Shown: positions 34,435 through 44,296 of the stretch, in pieces | How the letters are laid out: each line of letters opens with the position of its first letter | Position numbering within the stretch: position 1 is the first letter of the stretch | IMG/VR virus record: IMGVR_UViG_3300044691_000347 | Location: 27,378 to 91,377 of that record | DNA from: a virus | Length of the DNA stretch: 64,000 nt | Reading direction: 5' to 3' (one strand) | Notes under the pieces: model-generated | Database searches by the model: none | What the model saw: the letters and a program-made list of their open reading frames with translations, nothing else | What the model was told of the DNA's origin: nothing | Made by a program: the position numbers and the translations under genes

Positions 34435-34634
34435 TGTTGCCTCTCCCAGGCGTCGAGGACGGTTTGTCCGGGCAGGATGTAGATGGCGCGGTAGAGGTCA
34501 CGCTGATTGGCGTAGCGGAGGGCTGCTAGCTCGTCGTCACCGAAATATGCGACCCCGAAGCAATCCCCGCCCTCGCCGGCTCGCGCCCCCTGAAGCGGGA
34601 TCGCGAGCCAGCCGCCGTCGATAGGCGCGGTCAC
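34431..34634 (-). CDS. Hypothetical protein, 67 aa
   Basis: GTG 34634 overlaps the upstream stop by 1 base; the longer ATG frame shadows the upstream gene. Alpha/beta (GGWLAIPLQGARAGEGGDCFG, then a helix with LRYANQRDLY). Not recognised. Confidence 0.7.
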   Translation of the reverse strand: MTAPIDGGWLAIPLQGARAGEGGDCFGVAYFGDDELAALRYANQRDLYRAIYILPGQTVLDAWERQQ

Positions 34635-35305
34635 TACGATTCCGGATCCGGCGGGAACATGGCACCGTCTTCGGCGTACGGGACGTCGGCGTAGTGGGAG
34701 GCGGGGACGTCCTGGACAGCATCCGAGGGCGCCGCCCTCCCGTAGCTGACGACGTTGGCCCGTTCCTTCCACAAGTGCACCAGGCGGTCTCGGTGCCCCC
34801 CCAGGTCGAACGTCTTCAGTTGGGTGCCGATCGAGTGGAGCGCTCCACGATCGGCAGCCTTTGCGATACCCGCTGCGATCTCTTCCGCCTGCGCATCACT
34901 GATCACGGGCGGCCCATCCGGGAGCGGCTCGACGACGAACGGCTTACGTTTTCCGCGCGTGACAGTGAGCGCGAGGGTCAGTTGCTTGCTGATATGCGAC
35001 AGGGCCTTGATTCGGATGCCACCGACTTTTTCGGGGCCGAAACGGATTTCGGGGTCGCGGTAGATCATCATGCGCCGACCCGCGTACGTGCTGGACTCCG
35101 CACCCCACGCGTTGATGAGAACACGGATCATGCTTTTACCTGGCCGGTAGGGGCGTCCGGGGCCGAACTCGACGGTGACGATTTCAACCGGTTGCTCGGC
35201 ATTGCCCTTGCGGGTTTCGGTGATGGTGACGACACGCGGACCAGACATCAGATCATCTGCGTTGATCTGGTCGGATTTCGGTGCGGCGGCTTCGGAAATG
35301 TCCAT
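34634..35305 (-). CDS. Conserved phage protein next to the YqaJ exonuclease
   Basis: 223 aa. Contains SDQINADDLMSGPRVVTITE, VEIVTVEFGPGRPYRPGKSM and AGRRMMIYRDPEIRFGPEKVG, a pattern I recall from many actinophages, always near YqaJ-type nucleases. The beta-rich core could bind single-stranded DNA or anneal strands; this partnership role is inference. The C-terminal third is helical and acidic. Confidence 0.75.
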   Translation of the reverse strand: MDISEAAAPKSDQINADDLMSGPRVVTITETRKGNAEQPVEIVTVEFGPGRPYRPGKSMIRVLINAWGAESSTYAGRRMMIYRDPEIRFGPEKVGGIRIKALSHISKQLTLALTVTRGKRKPFVVEPLPDGPPVISDAQAEEIAAGIAKAADRGALHSIGTQLKTFDLGGHRDRLVHLWKERANVVSYGRAAPSDAVQDVPASHYADVPYAEDGAMFPPDPES

Positions 35306-35306
35306 G

Positions 35307-36188
35307 TCAAAACCTCATCTCGGTGAGTTCACGTTCAGTGGTGGGCAGCCCTTCGATGGCCTCGCCATAGAGGCGGACCATCTCGGCGGCGTTCGCCTCG
35401 AATGCGCGGACGGCTTCGAGGATTGCCTCAAACCACTTCTGCTGTGGCAGCACTCGGCTTACATAGAGGGGCATCCCCCCTGCGAAAGACACGTAGTCGC
35501 ACCACGCGCGTCCGGAGACGAGCAGCCCGCATTGCATCTGCGCCATGTTCTCGATTGGCGGGTGGTCTGCGAGGATCGTTTCAAGGTGGATCTTCGGGCG
35601 CCGGGATTTCACCTCGATCAATCCGTCAGCGCCGACGAGACCGTCCGGGGAGTAGCCAAGTTGGATGCCGCGGTGCTCACGAACCATGAAACCGACTTCT
35701 TGGACGGGGGCGTAGTGCTCGCTGTACTTGTCGCGGGCGCGGGGTTCGTCTTCGAGGCCACGGAACATGTCTTCACTCATGAATGTGGGATCGATCCATC
35801 CGGTGATGCGTTCGGCGACGAGCAATGCTGTGAGGCCGCGGGATGTGTCGTTGCTGGCGGTCTCGAACCTGGTGTTCGCGGAGTTGCGGCGGGCCAGTTC
35901 GGCGCGTTCCGGATGCAGGGTCTTGATTGCTGCGTCGGCCTTAACTTTGCTACGGCACGGGTCGTTTGCTGCCGCGCCACATGCAGTGCAGACGTAGTCG
36001 GACGCGGAGGGCTTGCGTGTGGTGATGAGGTTGCCGACGACGGACGCGGTGACGATCCCTCGCCGCTGGGCGAGCCATTCGTCCGAGCCCTGGAGTAGGT
36101 CTGGATAGACACTGAGGTGCGCCCGGTGCCATTCAGGTGAGCCGTGCTCGGTGGGCGGGAGTTCGTGGCGCATAGCGAGTTCGGTCAT
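35307..36188 (-). CDS. YqaJ-family (lambda-exonuclease-like) recombinase nuclease
   Basis: 293 aa. LLQGSDEWLAQRRGI (31-45), then TSRGLTALLVAERITG, and the PD-D/ExK site GYSPDGLVG with D182 and IEVKSRRP with E192 and K194. An insertion after the first motif has C67-X2-C70-X7-C78 and H92, a zinc finger like those in other small proteins here. It resects double-stranded ends for single-strand annealing. Confidence 0.88.
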   Translation of the reverse strand: MTELAMRHELPPTEHGSPEWHRAHLSVYPDLLQGSDEWLAQRRGIVTASVVGNLITTRKPSASDYVCTACGAAANDPCRSKVKADAAIKTLHPERAELARRNSANTRFETASNDTSRGLTALLVAERITGWIDPTFMSEDMFRGLEDEPRARDKYSEHYAPVQEVGFMVREHRGIQLGYSPDGLVGADGLIEVKSRRPKIHLETILADHPPIENMAQMQCGLLVSGRAWCDYVSFAGGMPLYVSRVLPQQKWFEAILEAVRAFEANAAEMVRLYGEAIEGLPTTERELTEMRF

Positions 36189-38396: not shown

Positions 38397-39251
38397 ATGA
38401 AATTGTGGCGGCGAACTCGCGGCGGCATGTCGGGCTATCTCCCTAGACTGGCCGATGTGGTGGTATTTGTTGTTCTTATGCTTGCCGTAGCATTCGCCCG
38501 GCTCAGCATGTGGCGAACCCGCCCACGATCCCACACGTTCACGGTCGCACTTTTCGTCCTCGGGGTGGCGTTCGTGTTGTCGCTGCCCTATATCGGAGAC
38601 CGGTATGTCGATCCGGCGCTGTCGTTCGCCGGCGCCAACATCAGCGATCTCGCGCATACGATCCTGGTTGTTGTTGCCTGCTGGTTGTTCGGGGTGATCA
38701 ATTTGCGTGCCCTCTCGTGGAGTGGTTGGCAGCACGTGTGGACTGTGTGTGCCGCGTTCGCTGTCGCGGCCCTCGTTGTGCTGTGGCGGGTCGGGGATGT
38801 GTCGCGGGTGCCGGTGGATCGGGAGATGCAGCTCCAGGATTGGCCGACGAACACGTATCTGGGGATTTTCTACGGGTTCGCGGCGGCGACATGTGTGCTG
38901 GTTTTTTTGGGATCGGCCGCGGCGTGGCGGTCGAGTCGGCGGGCACTGCGGGGTGCGCTGCTGGCGTTGTGCGGTGTTGGCGTGCTGGGCGTGACCTATG
39001 TCGGGATCGGCGTGTTTTGGTTGGTGCATCGGACGGTGTGGATGCAGGCCGATGGGACTTTTCTGTTGCTGGCTGGCCCGGGTTTGTTGGTGGTCGGCAT
39101 CTCGCTGGCGGGGGTGGCGCCTGTGGTGGATACGTGGCGGCGTCGTGTGCGGGTGAGGCAACAGGCGTGGTCGGGGGCCGAAAGTCGAGACAGTCTCAGG
39201 ACATCTGAGGACCACCATGGGTCACCAACAACCCCCACCGATAACCACTAA
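38397..39251 (+). CDS. Polytopic membrane protein paired with the repressor
   Basis: 284 aa; ATG 38397, seven bases after the repressor stop. About seven hydrophobic helices, for example DVVVFVVLMLAVAFARLSMW, FTVALFVLGVAFVLSLPYI and LLALCGVGVLGVTYVGIGVFW, then a polar tail of some 35 residues. It recalls membrane proteins encoded next to XRE regulators in actinobacteria (MAB_1171c-like). A role in superinfection exclusion is possible (inference). Confidence 0.72.
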   Translation: MKLWRRTRGGMSGYLPRLADVVVFVVLMLAVAFARLSMWRTRPRSHTFTVALFVLGVAFVLSLPYIGDRYVDPALSFAGANISDLAHTILVVVACWLFGVINLRALSWSGWQHVWTVCAAFAVAALVVLWRVGDVSRVPVDREMQLQDWPTNTYLGIFYGFAAATCVLVFLGSAAAWRSSRRALRGALLALCGVGVLGVTYVGIGVFWLVHRTVWMQADGTFLLLAGPGLLVVGISLAGVAPVVDTWRRRVRVRQQAWSGAESRDSLRTSEDHHGSPTTPTDNH

Positions 39252-39252
39252 T

Positions 39253-39295
39253 GCCCAGGTGGGACGGGTTTCGACTCTAACCCGCCCACCTGGGC
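39253..39295. terminator. Bidirectional terminator
   Basis: GCCCAGGTGGG and CCCACCTGGGC are perfect arms, extended by CGGGTT/AACCCG, followed by CTTT. Separates the membrane gene (+) from attP and int (-). Confidence 0.85.
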
Positions 39296-39304
39296 CTTTA
39301 GGTC

Positions 39305-39334
39305 CTAATTCATCGTGTAAATGAACTCAGCCAT
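39305..39334 (-). other. Candidate attP core, start of host ettA
   Basis: Read on the minus strand this is ATG GCT GAG TTC ATT TAC ACG ATG AAT TAG, coding MAEFIYTMN then stop. MAEFIYTM is the conserved start of EttA (ABC-F translation factor) in Mycobacteriales. It lies 73 bases downstream of int, where attP is expected, with phage genes on both sides. Integration here would rebuild the 5' end of ettA downstream of int. Confidence 0.65.
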
Positions 39335-39407
39335 GCCGAGCAGCCTAGTAGGCCCCAACCGATCCACGCCTTGGGGGCACCGACTCCGCGCAGCTAGGCA
39401 ACAAGAT

Positions 39408-40727
39408 TCAGTCCAAATCCACTATGCCCGAATCAGGCTCCACAACAGGACCCTCACTGCCGTCTCCGCCATCAGGACACTCCGGAGACAGTCCGAGATC
39501 GACGACTGCCCCGAAGACACCGTCGATCGCCGCACGAGACCTCGCGTGACTCGACGGCATCAGATGCGTGTAGGTCCGCAACGTGAGCGCCGGATCGCCG
39601 TGACCCAGGTAGTCCGCAAGTTCCCGAATCGACACCAGATTCGCCAACTGCACCGACGCATAGAAGTGCCGCAGCTGGTGTTCGCCGTCGATGCGTCGCC
39701 GCATCGGTATGCCAGCTTTCCGGAACGCACCCCGCCACACCGTGGCATGGAACAGCTCCCCATACCACGTCTTCTTGTCCTCACGCGACATCAAGACGTG
39801 CGCCGTCACCAACGGGCCGTCAGCAAACTTCCAGGGCAGCGTGACCGAGATCGGCGGAAACGCCTCGACGTAGGCGTCGATCGACTTGAGTACATAGTCC
39901 GCCACTGGGACACTGCGTGTCCGATCATGTTTAGGAAGGGAGAACACCACTGCGCCATCCGACAGCCGCCGAATCTGGCGCTGCACATGCAGTACCCCCT
40001 CGTCACGATCCAGATCTTCGCCTACATCAACCGCAAGCATCTCCCCACGCCGCAACCCCAGACCGGCGCCGAGAGGAATGACGATCTTGCTCCGTTTAGG
40101 CAGAGCCTCATGGATCGCGTCGACCTTTGACTTGGCCCACGGGATCAACACCTTCTTGGGCACCTTCGGCGGAGTGATCGACTTAGACCGGCACGGGTTC
40201 TCGGTGATGTACTTCTCCCGAACAGCCATATCCAAAATGGACGACAGCTGACGGAACAACTGGGACACATACGACGGATCAAGCCGGCGCCCATAGTAGG
40301 TGCGCTCCCCTACCCATTCCAGCCAGTCACGTACCGCGACGACAGTGCCAGTTCGCGCAATCGCGTAGGACTCGAAGAACGGCAAAATATGCTGACTGAT
40401 CTGCGTCTCAGTCGTATTGCGGCTACTCGGGTCCGCAGACGTCCCTTTGATCCAGTCGGCCGCAACCTTCTTGAAGGCTGTCTTGCCGATGTGCGGGTCG
40501 ATGTAGTTGCGCTGGTTCAGATCGTTTTCGACCTCCACGGCGAACGCGTCCGCTTCACGCTTACGCTTGTCGGCGAACGACTTCGAGCCCTGACCGCCTC
40601 CGGGCTTGTTCCAGCGCACCTTGTACCGCATGCCCGAACCATGCTTGTCGGTTTTGACCTTGATCGTCTTCTTGGAGTCACCCGGATCGGGCTCGTCGGT
40701 GAACCACAGGTCTGTGACAGTAGCCAT
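39408..40727 (-). CDS. int: Tyrosine-recombinase integrase
   Basis: 439 aa. N-terminal arm-binding type domain (MRYKVRWNKPGGGQGSKSF), a SAM-like core-binding domain at about 80-180, and a catalytic domain with R in GLGLRRGE (226/227), H350 and R353 in HQLRHF, H376 in GHGDP and nucleophile Y386 in TLRTYTHL. All active-site residues are present. Catalyses integration and excision of the phage at attP. Confidence 0.93.
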   Translation of the reverse strand: MATVTDLWFTDEPDPGDSKKTIKVKTDKHGSGMRYKVRWNKPGGGQGSKSFADKRKREADAFAVEVENDLNQRNYIDPHIGKTAFKKVAADWIKGTSADPSSRNTTETQISQHILPFFESYAIARTGTVVAVRDWLEWVGERTYYGRRLDPSYVSQLFRQLSSILDMAVREKYITENPCRSKSITPPKVPKKVLIPWAKSKVDAIHEALPKRSKIVIPLGAGLGLRRGEMLAVDVGEDLDRDEGVLHVQRQIRRLSDGAVVFSLPKHDRTRSVPVADYVLKSIDAYVEAFPPISVTLPWKFADGPLVTAHVLMSREDKKTWYGELFHATVWRGAFRKAGIPMRRRIDGEHQLRHFYASVQLANLVSIRELADYLGHGDPALTLRTYTHLMPSSHARSRAAIDGVFGAVVDLGLSPECPDGGDGSEGPVVEPDSGIVDLD

Positions 40728-40736
40728 CCCTGTGCC

Positions 40737-40979
40737 TCACGCCGCCGTGACGGTGTCGCCGTCTTCGGCCAGCCACGCCATGACCGTGCGAGGATCCCAG
40801 CGCAGATGACGCCCCATTTTGCCGCCACGGACAGGGGTTGGTCCGCCTCCGGTTTTCCGCCAGTGGTAGATGGTTTCCGGCCTGACCTTCAGGAACGCGG
40901 CGAGGTCGTGGATGTCCCACAAGCCCGGGATCGGCGCGCCGGACGGGTTACTGATGTCGAGCTGAACAGGTTCGGGCAT
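40737..40979 (-). CDS. xis: Excisionase-like HTH protein
   Basis: 80 aa from ATG 40979 (GGAGG upstream). Helix-turn-helix of the MerR/HTH_17 type: LWDIHDLAAFLKVRPETIYHW, then RGGKMGRHLRWDPRTVMAWL. These small proteins bind attP arms and steer integrase to excision, or recruit it. Nine bases upstream of int, same transcript. Confidence 0.82.
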   Translation of the reverse strand: MPEPVQLDISNPSGAPIPGLWDIHDLAAFLKVRPETIYHWRKTGGGPTPVRGGKMGRHLRWDPRTVMAWLAEDGDTVTAA

Positions 40980-40984
40980 GTCGC

Positions 40985-41047
40985 CCACCTCCAGATACGA
41001 TAGCTTTCACTGCATGTAGTCTCTGCTATCATATCAGGTACGGTCAA
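40985..41047 (-). promoter_or_regulatory. Control region of xis-int
   Basis: Contains TACGATAG (40995-41002) and CTATCATA (41026-41033), copies of the dispersed operator motif, and TTGACC on the minus strand at 41047-41042. I could not fix a -10 box. Suggests int is under the same repressor as the early operons. Confidence 0.5.
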
Positions 41048-42549: not shown

Positions 42550-42892
42550 GGCTTCCCCTTCCTAAACGTGTAGTCGGCGTGTGTCGGGCGCGCACCCCGG
42601 TGCGACTAGACGCCCGTGATGTATGGTCGTCGGCATCCCGGTACCCCGGAGGCGCAATCTAGGTGCGCCTGGCGGTTACCCGATTTGGAGCCCCACCCCG
42701 AAGCTTCCGCTTCCGGGTCGGTTCTGGCTTCCACCAGGCGCGATATAAGAACACCACTGGACATACCGGTGTTGCAAGCGCACCATGAAATTGCTGAGGA
42801 ACTTTTCCAAAGGCCCAGAAGGATTTTCCCAGATGCAAGAATTTTTTGCAGAGAGCAAAAGGCGGCCTGTCACCATGCAAAACGGAGGGACT
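42550..42892. other. 343-base divergent gap before the DUF5753 regulator
   Basis: No gene that I can support. A hairpin AGGCGC...GCGCCT lies at 42650-42670. A/T-rich segments near 42790-42870 could hold the regulator's promoter, but I cannot name the boxes. The regulator's frame is open back to an ATG at 42785. Confidence 0.45.
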
Positions 42893-43783
42893 GTGACGAA
42901 CGACGATGATGCTGGCACCACGCTGCCAAGACGGCAGTTGGGGCAGTATCTCAAGGATGCGCGGAACTCGCTCAACCTCACGCTCGAAGACGTGGCACCA
43001 CGCATACAGTGGTCGATATCCACGCTCTCGCGCGTGGAGTCGGGCAAGTCCCCCAGCGTCCGCATCGCCGACGTGGAAGCGCTGTGCAGGATCTATGAGC
43101 TGGAAGATCCCGTCGTAGTGGCCGGTCTCGTCGGGCTAGCCAAACAGAGCACAGGTCCGAGCTGGTGGCAGGCATACGACGACATCATCGGCGGCAGCAC
43201 CTTCGACCTGTACGTCGGCATGGAGTCGAGTTCCCGAAGTCTTCGAGTCTTCCGGCCAGATATCCCAAGCGGACTGTTTCAGACAGCCGCCTACGCTCGC
43301 GAGATCGAACGCCTGTACGTGCCAGGCATCACCGAAGAGGAACTGGATCGTCGGATCGAACTGAGAGCGAAGCGGCAAGCGCTGATCACCCGCAAGACCA
43401 ATCCGGCAACGATTGAACTCATCATCGGTGAAGGCGCGCTGCGGACTGTCGTCGGCGGACCAGACATCATGGAAGACGAACTGCTCCATCTGGCTGCCAT
43501 GCCAGCGAGCGTGACTGTGCTGGTGCTGCCCTTCGATGCTGGGTTCCCGGCTGGCATCCCGACGGGGCCCTTCACGATCCTGGACTTCGGCAAAGACTCG
43601 AAGGGCCGCGAGGTCTCGCCGCCCGTCGTCTACATCGAGTCGTATGCTGGCGACATCTACCTGGAGCGCCTCAAGGACGTGGCAAGGTATCGTCAGGCGT
43701 ATAGCGTCATACAGCAATCGTGCCTTGACGTTGCATCCAGCAAACGCCTGCTCAGGCAGGCAGCAAAGGAGTTTCGAGCGTGA
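42893..43783 (+). CDS. Scr1-type XRE regulator with DUF5753
   Basis: 296 aa; GTG 42893 with GGAGGG upstream. HTH at residues 10-70 (LGQYLKDARNSLNLTLEDVA, then STLSRVESGKSPSVR), followed by a DUF5753 domain (GPSWWQAYDDIIGGSTF, ARFRPDIP-like RVFRPDIPSGLFQTAAYA, then a GEGALRTVVGG strand). Such regulators are abundant in Streptomyces and Nocardia and pair with DUF397 proteins, as here with a 4-base overlap. Confidence 0.88.
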   Translation: MTNDDDAGTTLPRRQLGQYLKDARNSLNLTLEDVAPRIQWSISTLSRVESGKSPSVRIADVEALCRIYELEDPVVVAGLVGLAKQSTGPSWWQAYDDIIGGSTFDLYVGMESSSRSLRVFRPDIPSGLFQTAAYAREIERLYVPGITEEELDRRIELRAKRQALITRKTNPATIELIIGEGALRTVVGGPDIMEDELLHLAAMPASVTVLVLPFDAGFPAGIPTGPFTILDFGKDSKGREVSPPVVYIESYAGDIYLERLKDVARYRQAYSVIQQSCLDVASSKRLLRQAAKEFRA

Positions 43784-43986
43784 ACGTCGATCTGACGGGG
43801 GCCAAGTGGTTCAAGTCCAGTCGCAGTGGTGGGAACAAAGACTGTGTGGAGGCGGCTTTCCTCGATGGCGGCCTCGTGGGGGTGCGTGACTCCAAGAATC
43901 CCACCGGTCCGGCGCTGGTCTTCACCCCCAGCGAGTGGGACGCCTTCGCGGAAGGTGTCAAGGGCGGCGAGTTCGACCAGGCGTAA
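43780..43986 (+). CDS. DUF397 protein 1
   Basis: 68 aa, GTG start overlapping the regulator stop. Typical DUF397: AKWFKSSRSGGNKDCVEAAF, VGVRDSKNPTGPAL and FTPSEWDAFAEGVKGGEFD. These small proteins are partners, possibly antagonists, of DUF5753 regulators in actinobacteria. Confidence 0.9.
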   Translation: MNVDLTGAKWFKSSRSGGNKDCVEAAFLDGGLVGVRDSKNPTGPALVFTPSEWDAFAEGVKGGEFDQA

Positions 43987-43995
43987 CCCCTGATT

Positions 43996-44033
43996 CAACG
44001 GCTCGATTCCGGCGTGTCGGAATCGAGCCGTTG
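43996..44033. terminator. Strong terminator between the DUF397 genes
   Basis: Perfect 16-base arms CAACGGCTCGATTCCG / CGGAATCGAGCCGTTG around GCGTGT, followed by TC. Ends the regulator-DUF397 transcript. Confidence 0.85.
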
Positions 44034-44095
44034 TCATGTCCACCGCCAAGTCGTACCGTCAACTGCACCAACCGGTTTCGACCCGAGGAGGAAAC

Positions 44096-44296
44096 ATGGA
44101 CCTCGCCAATGCTCCATGGTTCAAAAGCAGCTACAGCGGCGGCGGCAAGGACTGCGTAGAGGCAGCGTTCCTTGGTGACGGCATGATCGGAGTCCGCGAC
44201 AGCAAGAACCCGACCGGACCCGCGCTAGCGTTCGCCCCGACAGAATGGGACGCCTTCACTTCAGGCTTGAAGAGTGGAGTATTCGATCGGCCCTAG
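44096..44296 (+). CDS. DUF397 protein 2
   Basis: 66 aa, ATG with GAGGAG upstream. APWFKSSYSGGGKDCVEAAF, then IGVRDSKNPTGPALAFAPTE. About three quarters identical to DUF397 protein 1 by eye, so a tandem duplicate, but with its own transcription unit between two terminators. Confidence 0.9.
   Translation: MDLANAPWFKSSYSGGGKDCVEAAFLGDGMIGVRDSKNPTGPALAFAPTEWDAFTSGLKSGVFDRP

Follow-up and report, generated by a model that had tools for sequence, protein, structure and literature searches.

A temperate phage of about 91 kb carries, beside its tyrosine integrase gene, a 26-nt sequence identical to the first codons of ettA in Nocardia and Rhodococcus, and comparison with host genomes identifies this segment as its attP core. 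Between the core and the integrase gene lies an arm resembling the native ettA promoter regions of Nocardia, and on the other side of the core stands a strong hairpin. Very probably the phage integrates at the start of ettA, replaces the native promoter with its own host-like arm, and ends the orphaned native transcript at the hairpin. The DNA analyzed is a stretch of 64,000 nucleotides (the window) that forms part of a virus record of 91,377 bp, and an attachment site at ettA had been proposed for it in a first-pass annotation. That annotation missed the hairpin after the core and the division of Nocardia hosts by ettA codon 7 into core-matching and mismatching types; it also missed that the phage carries, next to the core, a promoter region homologous to those of hosts, which alignment to Nocardia genomes brings out as new in this analysis.

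The attP core and its setting

The minus strand of 39305-39334 (ATGGCTGAGTTCATTTACACGATGAATTAG) does read MAEFIYTMN-stop, as the first-pass annotation stated (Table 1). The identity it proposed with the 5′ end of ettA is exact over 26 of 26 nt, beyond the 20 bases that it had taken as a threshold, and extends to both Nocardia and Rhodococcus. The span it gave for the site contains the core but is too long by the bases at 39305-39308, which are not common to hosts: identity between window and host stops at ATGAA, after which the hosts continue with GAAG or AAAG and the window with TTAG. The exact core is present in 58 stretches of actinobacterial DNA from GTDB genomes, and those that are readable far enough run on as ettA (MAEFIYTMKK[VAT]RKAHG[DE]KV[IV]LDD...); hosts whose ettA bears the exact core include Nocardia brasiliensis, N. 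vulneris, N. suismassiliense, N. colli, eight Rhodococcus and a Gordonia. Within the window the core is single-copy even when a degenerate pattern allows up to three mismatches, and it occurs in none of 100 shuffles. Phage records searched for the core yielded no convincing copy; two weak matches, one within a glycosyltransferase gene and the other 19 nt long, were rejected, and megablast of the 37.5-41.5 kb region against phages gave no match.

Table 1. Features at and around the attachment site, with positions in the window.
Feature	Position	Strand	Description
Phage recombination genes	34634..36188	-	YqaJ-type nuclease and neighbor; YqaJ 1.4e-11
Convergent ORF	38397..39251	+	Ends beside hairpin; no Pfam match
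Strong hairpin	39253..39295	-	Presumed (bidirectional) terminator, just 3′ of the core on the ettA-sense strand
TTAG	39305..39308	-	Finishes Asn and adds the stop; closes the 9-codon truncated frame MAEFIYTMN-stop
Predicted attP core	39309..39334	-	ATGGCTGAGTTCATTTACACGATGAA; 26 nt, equal to ettA codons 1-8 plus two bases
Integrase-side attP arm	39335..39407	-	Homologous to native ssb-ettA promoter regions of Nocardia
TAGGCT	39342..39347	-	-10-like hexamer 7 nt before ATG, leaderless spacing
Tyrosine integrase	39408..40727	-	439 aa; Pfam Phage_integrase 2.7e-9; PHROG integrase 3.7e-34
Small helix-turn-helix protein	40737..40988	-	Probable excisionase; Pfam HTH_17; PHROG excisionase/regulator 1.2e-7

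The core starts 73 bp beyond the integrase gene, and the breakpoints of two related elements, in the genomes G066 and G141, fall inside it or within about a base of its edge. The presence of the integrase and helix-turn-helix genes on one side and of the YqaJ-type recombination genes on the other indicates an uninterrupted attP, and so the earlier description of an intact site, flanked on both sides by phage genes and without integration in this record, is borne out. The terminase, portal and major head protein genes lie at the left end of the record and those for the head-tail adaptor, tail, tape measure and endolysin at its right, a division of the structural operon which implies that the genome is circular or permuted and that the record opens it at an arbitrary position. 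Terminase, portal, major head, tape measure, tail and endolysin together mark the element as a tailed phage, and its structural proteins are similar to proteins of phages that infect Gordonia, Rhodococcus, Mycobacterium and other actinobacteria. Near the integrase gene, at 42785-44296, there is also an XRE-DUF5753 regulator followed by two small DUF397-like proteins (recognized by eye), a set that is usual on actinobacterial chromosomes and here is found in a phage.

Related elements at the start of ettA

The closest integrases among 150 Nocardia genomes are those of G066 (53% identical) and of G141 and G145 (49% each). G066 is the only one of the 150 to hold two copies of the ettA start, at least one copy being present in 142 of them, and both junctions of an inserted element can be read there. 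On one contig, 74 bp containing TAGGCT separate the stop codon of the integrase gene from full ettA; a second contig runs from ssb through the promoter region and the same ettA start as far as ATGAA, where foreign DNA takes over. The promoter region on the ssb side agrees with the native region of G009 at 66/70 positions, and the frame that it precedes reads MAEFIYQMNDIT and then stops, the analogue of the truncated frame in the window. The inserted element (L096 5213-9687, L097) encodes RepSA, a GntR-type regulator with an AAA domain and the tyrosine integrase. AICEs of the pSAM2 type are marked by a RepSA-type replication initiator and an FtsK-like transfer protein, and the RepSA initiator suggests that the G066 element is probably an AICE that uses the 5′ end of a protein gene as its attB, rather than a phage.

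The relative in G141 is a prophage. Its contig C146, 94,472 bp long, encodes homologues of window proteins that are up to 74% identical, in the same gene order as the window record once that record is opened at the core; among them are homologues of the two recombination genes (68% and 74% identical) and, adjoining int, a homologue of the helix-turn-helix protein. One end of C146 runs through int, the arm, TAGGGT and ATGGC and so lies inside the ettA start, and the other runs through a hairpin into CCTTTGCGGTCTA (in the window, hairpin and then CCTTTAGGTCCTAA) and ends about one base before reaching the core. Codon 10 is where the ettA contig of G141 starts; a host contig on the ssb side was looked for in this genome and not found. 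These contig ends make a strong case that the G141 prophage is bounded by the core, which is present there as a contig break, not as a read-through junction. The first-pass expectation that integration would leave ettA downstream of phage sequence beside int agrees with G066, where both junctions are present, and with G141, where the phage and ettA contigs both break at the core. The G141 contigs C146 and C254 break at the att core, and integrated and excised forms could have coexisted in the culture.

A host-like promoter region beside the core

A TAGG[CGA]T hexamer stands 6-8 nt before the ATG in nearly all of 108 host ettA starts, and the commonest arrangement among them (50 counts) is TAGGCT at 7 nt. 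A hexamer so near the ATG would fit a leaderless ettA start of the kind known from actinobacterial promoters. The likeness of the window arm to host DNA extends well beyond this box. Compared ungapped and in register with regions upstream of ettA, it agrees with G076 at 45/70 positions and with G145 and G084 at 44/70; the region in G145 is native, since ssb lies directly upstream. Its shift-tolerant score of 39/56 is attained by none of 1000 shuffles, whose maximum is 31. The other two elements give the same result with different partners: the G066 arm is like the N. brasiliensis type and the G141 arm like G101, both at 37/56 with a one-base shift, a value reached by 0 of 1000 shuffles in either case. 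For all three arms the shuffle result holds with or without the -10 region. The arms of the window, G066 and G141 are unlike one another (18-25/56) and each is nearest a different Nocardia host type, a pattern most simply read as the elements having taken up ettA promoter regions from hosts more than once. A consensus promoter scan called no promoter and no -35/-10 pair in this region. We infer from the alignments and the placement of the hexamer that the arm would act as an active promoter that keeps ettA expressed.

The core itself bears on the identity of the host. Codon 7 of ettA, whose variation between Gln and Thr sits within the att core, is Gln (CAG or CAA) in most of the 150 Nocardia genomes, and the exact ACG form occurs in nine; carriers of ACG (Thr) include the N. 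brasiliensis type, and the Rhodococcus loci that were found have it too. MAEFIYTM, put forward earlier as the conserved EttA N terminus, therefore marks real ettA starts but is not universal in Nocardia. The window core would differ at two bases from the commonest Gln-type starts, and the window arm is nearest to Gln-type hosts. This pairing of an arm nearest Gln-type hosts with a core of the ACG type means that the real host may be a species not yet sampled. The host is very probably a mycolic-acid actinobacterium, Nocardia or a close relative.

A hairpin on the far side of the core

The hairpin has a folding energy of -36.5 kcal/mol and z of -5.7 to -5.9. In G141 a hairpin of the same fold occupies the same position, and its altered stem sequence still pairs. 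A T-run is absent from the window hairpin, and it was not among the calls of the consensus terminator scan. In the G066 element no strong hairpin follows the core, which suggests that termination may be specific to the phages. The window hairpin may terminate both the orphaned transcript of the ettA promoter and that of the convergent ORF.

Proposed mechanism and alternatives

In the mechanism that we propose, the tyrosine integrase would recombine the core with the same 26 nt at the host ettA start, and integration would cut ettA off from its native promoter between ssb and ettA. The phage arm of about 70 bp, with its -10-like hexamer, would join in frame to an unaltered ettA, and the native promoter would be left driving the 9-codon remnant, which would run into the strong hairpin. 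The hairpin probably ends the remnant transcript before it enters the prophage; this termination is something that we infer, as we do the reversal of the reaction by the excisionase. The earlier suggestion that ettA passes under phage-side control would accordingly narrow to control by a phage-borne copy of a host-type promoter. Since ettA is essential in M. tuberculosis, is apparently leaderless and is hit at its first codon, the insertion would be tolerable only with a working phage promoter.

A different outcome would be that lysogeny changes the level or regulation of ettA, and hence the translation and stress state of the host, on the model of HK022 at torS. In G066, the one lysogen where both are readable, the arm does differ from the resident promoter. 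The gene is a sensitive target in M. tuberculosis, where it is essential and where partial loss of its function switches on whiB7 and confers drug resistance at a low level (PMC9159947). The HK022 prophage at torS provides a precedent in which a prophage promoter drives and up-regulates the adjoining host gene (PMC6814406), and a prophage-borne promoter would likewise drive the adjoining gene after integration at ettA. HK022, however, uses a phage promoter to raise torS, whereas the window arm has its homologue in the promoter region of the target gene itself. The resemblance of the arms to host promoter regions suggests preservation rather than change, and an effect of lysogeny on ettA levels is a tentative proposal that we consider unlikely. 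Reduced ettA function alters mycobacterial translation and stress responses, so that a lysogenic promoter swap of this kind could change physiology without any cargo gene.

It is rather improbable that the site is an attP at ettA whose arm is no functional promoter, with ettA read from int or from another phage transcript and the likeness of the arm to host DNA left as a relic of old imprecise excision or imposed by the arm-binding needs of the integrase. Read-through would be possible, since int is codirectional and lies just upstream of the core, and the missing call of a consensus -35/-10 pair is in keeping with it. The likeness, however, is in register to the ATG, the -10-like box keeps leaderless spacing in three otherwise unrelated arms, and drift after a single capture would not yield three arms nearest different host types. 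Scarcely credible is a captured host gene fragment unrelated to attachment, with the true attP elsewhere in the genome: such fragments are known in phage genomes, but this one adjoins int, the G066 and G141 elements break at the same sequence within about one base of the core edges, and G066 contradicts the idea outright with both its junctions in this sequence.

Relation to known systems

Many described actinobacterial attB sites are tRNA genes, which integration reconstitutes, and in the literature searched no paper naming ettA as an attB was found. Integration at the 5′ end of a gene, with replaced upstream sequence and putative -10/-35 elements, has been described for dusA-specific integrases, prophages and islands (PMC4482086). 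As in the window phage, the integrase directs insertion to a coding gene's 5′ end and the element supplies new 5′ sequence, an arrangement that is seen in G066 in the succession of int, 74 bp and ettA. The dusA elements replace part of the protein N terminus, however, whereas the window phage would leave the protein unchanged and supply a promoter region ending at the ATG. The hosts and the target gene are also different, and because the target gene differs we do not claim membership in the dusA integrase family. In Mycobacterium abscessus, attB-29 lies at the sixth codon of a non-essential SpoU-like methyltransferase gene, whose expression following integration was left open (PMC10654092). 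Like the ettA site it is an actinobacterial prophage site at a translation start, but the integration system is another one, and ettA is essential in M. tuberculosis. With pSAM2-type AICEs there is a link through the G066 element, which sits at the same ettA site and shares their RepSA replication initiator; the window element, in contrast, has the terminase, portal, head and tail genes of a tailed phage.

The balance tilts slightly toward a broader pattern, in which tailed phages and AICE-like elements use the ettA start as attB and carry captured promoters of their target, and in which lysogeny swaps the promoter between species. The three different host-like ettA promoters on three elements suggest a route by which promoters could move between species; if true, promoters of a translation factor, one that is essential in a related genus, would be transferred horizontally. 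As an integration tool, the int-attP pair might also be of use in Nocardia and Rhodococcus.

Other integrases and ettA sites

Of 395 genomes searched class-wide, none had two ettA starts, which indicates that occupied sites are rare, and a single-protein integrase scan of genome contigs and viral contigs, with a reach of close relatives, gave no match. In two IMG/VR contigs, L065 and L066, foreign phage-like DNA comes after an ettA start (MAEFIYTM), with ssb upstream in L066 and a 28% identical integrase at the other end of that contig. They probably represent another ettA-integrating phage lineage, and are taken as supporting evidence because the ettA-side junction falls outside the record. 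Streptomyces elements with integrases 34-37% identical have no ettA start nearby and were set aside, as was the idea that ettA-targeting integrases form one clade, which the tree (with L082 entered in the wrong frame) did not support. In a further set of Nocardia loci (L077-L081, L083-L086, L094 and L095), integrases about 40-49% identical to that of the window abut apparent acyl-CoA dehydrogenase 3′ ends, recognized by a motif match in the downstream translation, and these 3′ ends look like a second target in the same integrase group.
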